DNA from: Lachnospiraceae bacterium | GTDB lineage: Bacteria > Bacillota > Clostridia > Lachnospirales > Lachnospiraceae | Direction: 5' to 3' | Length of the DNA: 64,000 nucleotides | NCBI GenBank assembly: GCA_016283575.1 | Contig: JAEEND010000007.1 | Span: 310,001 to 374,000 of the forward strand | Shown here: positions 47,309-50,128 of the stretch, one piece after another | Layout of the letters: each line of letters starts with the position of its first letter | Position numbering within the stretch: position 1 is the stretch's first letter | The notes under the pieces: model-generated | Told to the model about the DNA's origin: nothing | The model's input: the letters and a program-made list of their open reading frames with translations, nothing else | Database searches by the model: none | Position numbers and translations under genes: made by a program

Positions 47309-48697
47309 GGTCAAGTCCTTTTTGTGGTGTAAATTCACCTTTAGGTTTTTTGCTTTTATGCAGCTAGTAATTGTTGTTGCTTTTTCGCAATGACAATCAG
47401 TTTGTTTTTGCATGATTTTAGTTTTGCTTTGTCACTTGCGCCTATATTTAGCTTTTGCTCTAGTACATATACTTGATTTAATTCTACTAGAACACTCCCC
47501 ATTATTCGTAGCAAAGATGCTTCATTAGGAAATATGCCTATTACTTTCGAGCGCCTTTTTAATTCCTTATTAAGACGCTCAAGGTGGTTAGATGTGCGCA
47601 TAAATCTTCTGTAGCTTTTTGGCAAAGTAAGAACTGTCATTGCGTCTTCAAATCCTAAATCTAAGCACTCTAACGCCTTATCTGCGACATCTTTATATTC
47701 TTCAAATATTGCATCTCTAATCTTTCGTGCTTCCTCTATTGTTTCGCTATTATACATATCCTGAAGCTGAGCATGAATAGCCTTCTGATATTTTTTAGGC
47801 GCATGCTCCAGGATATTTCTTGAAAAATGTGTCTGGCAACGTTGCCAAGGAACATCAGGGAAAACTTTGCTAATAGCATATATTATTCCTTGGTGGGCAT
47901 CAGATGTTATCATATTTAACCCTGATAGGCCACGATTGGCCAATGATTCAAGAAATAGTTTCCATGTTTCTTTCGATTCGTTCTCATAGACTTCAAACCC
48001 AACAATCTCTCGATGACCAGCTTCATCATAAGCAAGCGCAACCATTAATGCGCGAGGTTCAATGTGAAGTTCTCCCCTTACCTTAAAGTATGTTGCATCA
48101 ACATACATAAACGGATATTCACCAGACAGTGGTCGATTTTTAAACTTAATAACTGAAGCATCCAATTCTTTACACACTTCCGAAACTGTAGATTTAGAAA
48201 AAGATGTCCCGCAAAGCGTTTCCATTACAGTAGACACTTTCCTTGTGGAAACACCATTAACAACCATTTCTGCCATAGTGGTAACCAGCGCAGCTTCGCT
48301 GCGTGAATAGTTGTCAAAAATAAGGCTTTTAAAAGGAACATTACGATGTCTAGGAACGCAAAGATCTATTGTACCAATTCTGGTTTTAAGTTCTCGATTT
48401 CTAGAACCATTTCTGCTATCGGATCTTTCGAGAGAACGTTCATATCTTTCTGCGCCGAGTTGTGCGGAAGATTCTGCCTGAAGAATGCTATTCAAGCTTT
48501 CTTGGAGTAATGTTTTGAACGCTTCATTACGATCAGCTGATAATAATTGTAGAATTTCGTCCTGATTTAAAGTAATATTGAGTTGAGCCATAGTGTTCTA
48601 CCTCCGGTATCGTTTGATTGTGGTGATTTAATTATACCTAAAGGAGAGCCTTTGGCTCTTTCAATTTTTTAATTTACACCATTATATGGACATTACT
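47309..48697 (-). mobile_element. IS256-family insertion sequence, 1389 bp, 8-bp TSD AGTACTTT
   Basis: 27-bp terminal inverted repeats (20/27 match) ending ...GGTGTAAATT; AGTACTTT at 47301-47308 and 48698-48705; empty site present at 56720-56727. Confidence 0.9.
47356..48591 (-). CDS. IS256 family transposase
   Basis: EYPFMYVDATYFKVR, LNMITSDAHQGIIYAISKVFPDVPWQRCQTHFSRN, MRTSNHLERLNKELKRRSKVIGIFPNEASLLRI. Confidence 0.95.
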   Translation of the reverse strand: MAQLNITLNQDEILQLLSADRNEAFKTLLQESLNSILQAESSAQLGAERYERSLERSDSRNGSRNRELKTRIGTIDLCVPRHRNVPFKSLIFDNYSRSEAALVTTMAEMVVNGVSTRKVSTVMETLCGTSFSKSTVSEVCKELDASVIKFKNRPLSGEYPFMYVDATYFKVRGELHIEPRALMVALAYDEAGHREIVGFEVYENESKETWKLFLESLANRGLSGLNMITSDAHQGIIYAISKVFPDVPWQRCQTHFSRNILEHAPKKYQKAIHAQLQDMYNSETIEEARKIRDAIFEEYKDVADKALECLDLGFEDAMTVLTLPKSYRRFMRTSNHLERLNKELKRRSKVIGIFPNEASLLRIMGSVLVELNQVYVLEQKLNIGASDKAKLKSCKNKLIVIAKKQQQLLAA

Positions 48698-48937: not shown

Positions 48938-49420
48938 TCACGAAATATAATCTTTACAAGCTTTTTCTAAAACTTTGAAATTATTAGTTCTCTTTGCAAG
49001 CGGAGAATTCTCTCCGTTTCTTTCCTTATGTTTGTAAACGATACTTGCATTCTTCAATATTCTGTTCTTTTGGCGGTTAATTTCTCTGCTTTCTGCCTGA
49101 AGAAGAAAACGGTAATGAGGATCTTTGGTGCCGTTAACATCAACTAACGCATACTCGCCTTCCGGAACGGGAATCATATTGTTAATGTTTATTACGGCAT
49201 AATCTTTAATCTTAATGAAATCTACGCCTTCATCCATCTTTTTGTGCTTGGATTTAAAGGAAGAAAGTGGTGCGAAATACTTGAATTCGTTAATCTCTAA
49301 AACAATACCGATGTACTTTCTTCCTGCTTTGTCACCATCCGCAAAAAATAAGTGGTCTTGAAAACCTGTCAAATACTTAATGTAATGAGGATTAACCTCA
49401 TAAATCTTTAGTCCCCGCAT
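48938..49420 (-). CDS. toxN: type III toxin-antitoxin endoribonuclease, ToxN/AbiQ family
   Basis: LKIYEVNPHYIKYLTGFQDHLFF...GRKYIGIVLEINEFKYFAPLSSFKSKHKKMDEGVDFIKI...AVININNMIPVPEGEY; ATG 49420 with GGGAGG RBS. Confidence 0.88.
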   Translation of the reverse strand: MRGLKIYEVNPHYIKYLTGFQDHLFFADGDKAGRKYIGIVLEINEFKYFAPLSSFKSKHKKMDEGVDFIKIKDYAVININNMIPVPEGEYALVDVNGTKDPHYRFLLQAESREINRQKNRILKNASIVYKHKERNGENSPLAKRTNNFKVLEKACKDYIS

Positions 49421-49441
49421 ATACCTCCCGTAGATAAGAAA

Positions 49442-49465
49442 CAGGGACAAGAAAACTTGTCCCTG
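49442..49465 (-). terminator. intrinsic terminator between ToxI and toxN
   Basis: CAGGGACAAG-aaaa-CTTGTCCCTG perfect 10-bp stem. Confidence 0.85.
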
Positions 49466-49545
49466 CTGTTAACTCGCTCATTTAAGGGCTGTGCATCACC
49501 CACTATTAACTTGCTCATTTATAAGGCTGTGCATCACCTACTAAC
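49442..49545 (-). ncRNA. toxI: ToxI-type antitoxin RNA: two tandem repeats plus terminator
   Basis: Minus strand GTTAGTAGGTGATGCACAGCCTTATAAATGAGCAA then GTTAATAGTGGGTGATGCACAGCCCTTAAATGAGCGA, partial GTTAACAG, then CAGGGACAAG-tttt-CTTGTCCCTG; promoter TTGAAA-16-TATAAT upstream. Confidence 0.82.
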
Positions 49546-49579
49546 TATATTATACTTATTCTCCACAATTTTTCAAGCA

Positions 49580-49741
49580 TTATTGTTTTTGCTCATGGTC
49601 TTTTTCGTGTTGCTTTATCGCCTGCCTTATAAGATAAAGCACTTCTCCATTGATGGAGCGGCCATCATATTCAGCAAGATCCTTTAATTTCTCATGTGTT
49701 TCCGAATCTATCCTTAATCCCAAATGTTTGTCCTTCTCCAT
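49580..49741 (-). CDS. ribbon-helix-helix (Arc/CopG-like) protein, 53 aa, not in the supplied ORF track
   Basis: Manual translation MEKDKHLGLRIDSETHEKLKDLAEYDGRSINGEVLYLIRQAIKQHEKDHEQKQ*. Confidence 0.82.
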   Translation of the reverse strand: MEKDKHLGLRIDSETHEKLKDLAEYDGRSINGEVLYLIRQAIKQHEKDHEQKQ

Positions 49742-49761
49742 CACAAGCCTCCCATACTTCT

Positions 49762-49915: not shown

Positions 49916-50128
49916 ATGACAAAATACGGTTACATTCGAGTTTCATCAAAAGATCAGAAACCGGAACGACAAGTGGAAGCTCTGCTTAACTACGGTATCG
50001 AAAAGGAAAACATCTTTACTGACTATATGTCTGGCAAGGACTTCAACAGACCTCGGTACAGAGCTCTTATGAGAAAACTAAAACGTGGTATAATTAAATT
50101 AGCTAAGGAAAGGAGCTTTAAGACATGA
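49916..50128 (+). pseudogene. truncated serine recombinase (resolvase N-terminal segment)
   Basis: MTKYGYIRVSSKDQKPERQVEALLNYGIEKENIFTDYMSGKDFNRPRYRALMRKLKRG then loses the rest of the catalytic domain and the HTH. Confidence 0.8.

Follow-up and report, generated by a model that had tools for sequence, protein, structure and literature searches.

Most work on ToxIN systems concerns Proteobacteria, Bacillus and Lactococcus. In the P. atrosepticum and E. coli systems (PDB 2xd0 and 7d8o), the antitoxin RNA ToxI is encoded ahead of the toxin ToxN, with a terminator between them, and consists of 5.5 or 4.6 tandem units of 36-38 nt, each an H-type pseudoknot with a 4-bp first stem (S1), a G5-A6 first loop (L1) and an A-rich second loop (L2). 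The Lactococcus AbiQ/antiQ system (4glk) belongs to the ToxN family and has a short array of 2.8 units of 35 nt, of which at least 1.8 are needed (PMC5086642). Eubacterium rectale CptIN (4rmo) is a two-unit member of the type III superfamily, with a toxin of another subfamily, 45-nt units, other pseudoknot loops and a 2:2 complex. The toxIN loci of Marvinbryantia formatexigens, Eubacterium rectale DSM 17629 and Clostridium nexile are listed among gut loci that have a 38-nt repeat unit present about 2.1 times (PMC6315513 Table 3).

The window, a 64-kb stretch of a Lachnospiraceae genome, very probably carries a complete ToxIN locus, a type III toxin-antitoxin system encoded on the chromosome. 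The locus shares with the P. atrosepticum and E. coli systems the gene order, the intervening terminator, the ToxN fold (TM 0.79-0.81) and the pseudoknot described above, but differs in having two units, present as two forms in a fixed order, with linkers that lack AAAU, and its second stem (S2) spans six positions with an A.A mismatch, whereas that of E. coli ToxI has four pairs including U-U. Like AbiQ/antiQ (TM ~0.8), it has a ToxN-family toxin and a short array; in contrast to the antiQ minimum, two of its relatives have one complete unit. It resembles the three gut loci named above in repeat length, copy number and bacterial group, a likeness drawn from table values and not from repeat sequences. 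Because two-repeat 38-nt arrays were already listed there, the array is not unusually short, contrary to the initial annotation, which had singled out its two repeats. The locus is new as a ToxIN member and ordinary in kind.

Anatomy of the locus

The features of the locus, read from the minus strand, are as follows.

49549..49576, minus strand: toxI promoter, TTGAAA-16-TATAAT, sigma-70-type, from direct reading and the spacing in relatives
49506..49543, minus strand: ToxI unit 1, 38 nt, A-U form, 6-nt L2; ends placed by analogy with E. coli ToxI numbering
49469..49505, minus strand: ToxI unit 2, 37 nt, G-C form, 5-nt L2; ends placed by the same analogy
49442..49465, minus strand: Rho-independent terminator stem-loop, perfect 10-bp stem, between toxI and toxN
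49424..49429, minus strand: ribosome-binding site GGGAGG, from direct reading
48938..49420, minus strand: toxN, 160 aa, ToxN/AbiQ endoribonuclease toxin; ATG at 49420, stop ending at 48938

The promoter boxes lie at 49576-49571 (TTGAAA) and 49554-49549 (TATAAT), separated by a 16-nt spacer; another 9 nt separate the end of the -10 box from position 1 of unit 1. This second distance is 9-11 nt in 21/21 loci. The terminator is formed by an inverted repeat (49442-49451/49456-49465) with a TTTT loop and a T-rich tail, and its fold has a z-score of -5.65; the stem is retained in relatives, though its sequence differs. The order promoter-ToxI-terminator-toxN is common to 20 related intact loci, whose ToxN proteins are 62-84% identical to that of the window and which bear the same ToxI unit family. 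The locus anatomy and promoter spacing were established by computation, as were the family and fold of ToxN and the pseudoknot covariation described below.

These results bear out the initial annotation in most respects. The locus coordinates, the promoter, the 10-bp terminator stem, and toxN with its ribosome-binding site were all recovered as first described, and the proposal of a complete type III ToxIN/AbiQ architecture passed every computable test, with the order, terminator and units recurring in the 20 relatives. Of the two tandem repeats described there, the number held, but the lengths given, 37 and 35 nt, had to be corrected to 38 and 37 nt. What had been taken for the start of a third repeat (GTTAACAG) is the single-stranded stretch at the 3′ end of unit 2: its counterpart GTTAATAG stands behind unit 1, and arrays of relatives close with the same tail. 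The array therefore consists of two complete ToxI units, with no third.

The locus is flanked by an IS256-type transposase (47356-48591, minus strand) and a truncated serine-recombinase N-terminus (49916-50128, plus strand), which is consistent with a variable region.

Pseudoknot units and their two forms

The core GGTGATGCACAGCC occurs twice in the 64-kb window, at 49525-49538 and 49487-49500, against 0.00 occurrences expected in shuffles, even with one mismatch allowed. In E. coli numbering, with position 1 at 49539 (unit 1) and 49501 (unit 2) on the minus strand, S1 of the predicted fold pairs positions 1-4 with 13-16, L1 is G5-A6, and S2 pairs positions 7-12 with the six bases that follow the A-rich L2. 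G5, A6 and the A-rich L2 end are ToxI positions reported to be conserved (PMC8860590). Structure prediction for each repeat, which had been proposed as a check, gave both window units a closer fit to an H-type pseudoknot than approximately 98-99% of shuffles. Covariation supports this fold. Among 28 distinct units, 19 have A-U and 9 have G-C as the end pair of S1, and none has this pair broken; no shuffle out of 500 attained the observed covariation score, and shifting the pairing partner by 1-3 columns lowered the share of paired cells from 90% to 20-49%. Stem 2 contains a near-constant A.A mismatch, which is replaced by a G-C pair, through a change on each side, in unit 1 of locus L019. The covariation across these aligned units is good, not overwhelming, because the sequences are related and few of the changes are independent.

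Nested minimum-energy folding of the two-unit RNA was not significant (z -0.53), as expected, since pseudoknots are beyond what such programs model. A search of Rfam at a permissive threshold returned no ToxI family, and one sub-threshold match over the terminator region was taken as chance. The linker GUUAAUAGU, a putative cut site, contains no exact match to the known ToxN cleavage motifs AA|AU, GAA|AU and AAA|AA (PMC8860590).

The difference in unit length was initially regarded as unusual. It resides in L2, which is UAUAAA (6 nt) in unit 1 and UUAAA (5 nt) in unit 2, and is a conserved feature of the relatives rather than an oddity of the window locus. Among 43 units from 21 loci, the 30 A-U units have an L2 of 6 nt in 28 cases and 5 nt in 2, and the 13 G-C units an L2 of 5 nt in 12 cases and 4 nt in 1. 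The expanded pseudo-ToxI repeats of phage PhiTE also vary by one base in a T run (2T/3T; PMC3475682), and, taken together with the L2 pattern, this indicates that unequal length need not bar equivalent folding. Unit 1 is of the A-U form in 21/21 loci, and all 13 units of the G-C, short-loop form are second units. The fixed order of the two forms is a real regularity. One reading, which we consider improbable, is that the two units are not interchangeable copies but long-maintained forms in a fixed order with different roles. If this were the case, the weaker A-U, long-loop unit would come first and the stronger G-C, short-loop unit second, and their differing affinity or decay rate might, for example, set the trigger point of the toxin; single-unit relatives would then show that tandem repetition itself is dispensable.

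The toxin, its relatives and alternative readings

The 160-aa ORF matches the Pfam ToxN_toxin profile (PF13958) with 170.6 bits (cut-off 25) over positions 1-159 of 159, and the PADLOC AbiQ model at 9.8e-35, both far above cut-off. Searches with phmmer matched it to the PDB sequences of four solved ToxN/AbiQ structures. An AlphaFold model built from a 22-sequence alignment (mean pLDDT 90.8) superimposes on 7d8o (E. coli), 4ato (B. thuringiensis), 2xd0 (P. atrosepticum) and 4glk (AbiQ) with the TM scores of 0.79-0.81 quoted above. The E. coli catalytic set K33/T52/S53/K55 (PMC8860590) corresponds to R34/S53/S54/K56, each residue kept or conservatively replaced; S54 and K56 are invariant across the 22-sequence alignment, and Arg in place of K33 is also present in E. 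coli clusters 4 and 5 (PMC8860590). Three residues with which E. coli ToxN contacts RNA, W57, Y115 and Q117, correspond to K58, Q108 and E110 in the window protein, as expected with a different cognate RNA. By profile, sequence and modelled fold, the identification of the ORF as ToxN is secure.

No second ToxN was found in the 2.2-Mb genome, and ToxN genes were present in 44/299 sampled genomes of the same family. Several of the loci collected depart from the standard form. In L026 (DEFA01000044.1, 4001-5557, plus strand), a single 518-aa ORF downstream of a four-unit ToxI array fuses ToxN, residues 1-170, with a Fic/DOC domain at residues 293-384 that contains the motif QPFQDGNKRIG; the papers searched included none on a ToxN-Fic fusion. 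Another Lachnospiraceae ToxN branch (L066, L068, L070, L075, L076, L077) has one recognisable pseudoknot-like unit upstream of toxN, GGTGAGTCCTACC or similar, and a separate hairpin between the unit and the terminator, which covaries with double changes in 6/10 pairs (5 sequences). L046 (genome G212) is a relic with one good ToxI unit, one decayed unit, a terminator and approximately the first 14 codons of toxN. L049/L052 (genome G370, contig C31:75296-76745) are two solo ToxI units with terminators and no toxN left; they share 97% identity over 66 bp, lie 1425 bp from each other and flank a small ORF and a P-loop ORF judged zeta-toxin-like by the look of its sequence. The Clostridioides phage record pCD1602_4 (132 kb) encodes, unannotated, a ToxN 40% identical to that of the window (CP069348.1:5209-5682). 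A pattern scan of viral contigs for a phage-borne ToxI decoy gave one match, judged to be chance because the contig has neither a second unit nor ToxN.

Membership in CptIN or TenpIN, with a two-unit antitoxin and a 2:2 complex, was weighed because CptI likewise has two units (PMC4627078) and the CptIN of Eubacterium rectale comes from the same bacterial group as the window genome. This reading is very unlikely, and CptIN membership was rejected: the TM score to CptN (4rmo) is only 0.42, as against 0.79-0.81 to ToxN/AbiQ, CptN was absent from the matches in the sequence search of solved structures, and the units, at 37-38 nt versus ~45 nt, have a ToxI-like two-base L1 (GA) and an L2 of 5-6 nt, whereas CptI has a one-base L1 and a long L2. 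Also very unlikely is a three-component module in which an upstream Arc-like gene regulates toxIN transcription. A ribbon-helix-helix gene (49580-49744; Arc match 7.4e-08) does end 3 nt before the toxI -35 box on the same strand; however, tblastn placed it in the window's own genome and in no related locus, and the sequences upstream of toxI differ among relatives, so that a role as third component was discarded. The existence of relics (L046, cut to 14 toxN codons, and the toxN-less L049/L052), together with the transposase and truncated resolvase nearby, would fit a decaying remnant with an inactive toxin and leftover repeats, yet toxN is intact over the full profile, its catalytic positions are kept, and the promoter, both ToxI units and the terminator are intact, leaving decay just as remote as a third component.

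As a functional ToxIN locus, it would be transcribed from one promoter into a short RNA with two pseudoknot units; the intervening terminator would stop most transcripts, with some reading through into toxN. ToxN, a Kid/MazF-fold endoribonuclease, would trim the ToxI units, which would hold it inactive in a closed ring, by analogy probably of three toxins and three RNAs. Upon transcription shut-off, such as in phage infection, the short-lived ToxI RNA would be lost first, and the freed ToxN would cut RNA, leading to growth arrest and abortive infection. It is from studied relatives that RNase activity, RNA processing, ring assembly and phage defence are ascribed to the window locus.

Copy number and single-unit loci

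Among 21 loci, 16 have two ToxI units, 3 have three, and 2 (L004 and L047) have one. L004 and L047 fall on separate parts of the ToxN tree, which means that the single-unit state arose at least twice; both toxN ORFs look intact. Both were judged from assemblies, not reads, L004 being a short metagenome contig and L047 lying near a contig end; an assembler working with the usual word sizes is unlikely to collapse a 38-nt repeat. The toxN frame of L047 (genome G200) runs into the C-terminus of a tyrosine integrase, which suggests insertion at an integrase gene.

Reported minimum arrays are 1.8 units for antiQ and 2.5 for P. atrosepticum ToxI (PMC5086642), and a single repeat was tested for rescue in CptIN (PMC4627078). 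Because each of the 21 loci has its -10 box 9-11 nt ahead of position 1, transcription initiation probably creates the 5′ end of unit 1, and a single unit could then work without an inter-unit cut. One ToxI unit may be enough as an antitoxin. Published type III discovery criteria demand a tandem array (PMC5086642), so single-unit loci would be missed.

The window locus and its relatives add to the type III systems a coherent Lachnospiraceae ToxI family with a covariation-supported structure. Of greater importance than the window locus are the natural single-unit loci, in which it could be tested cleanly whether one pseudoknot per transcript can control ToxN.
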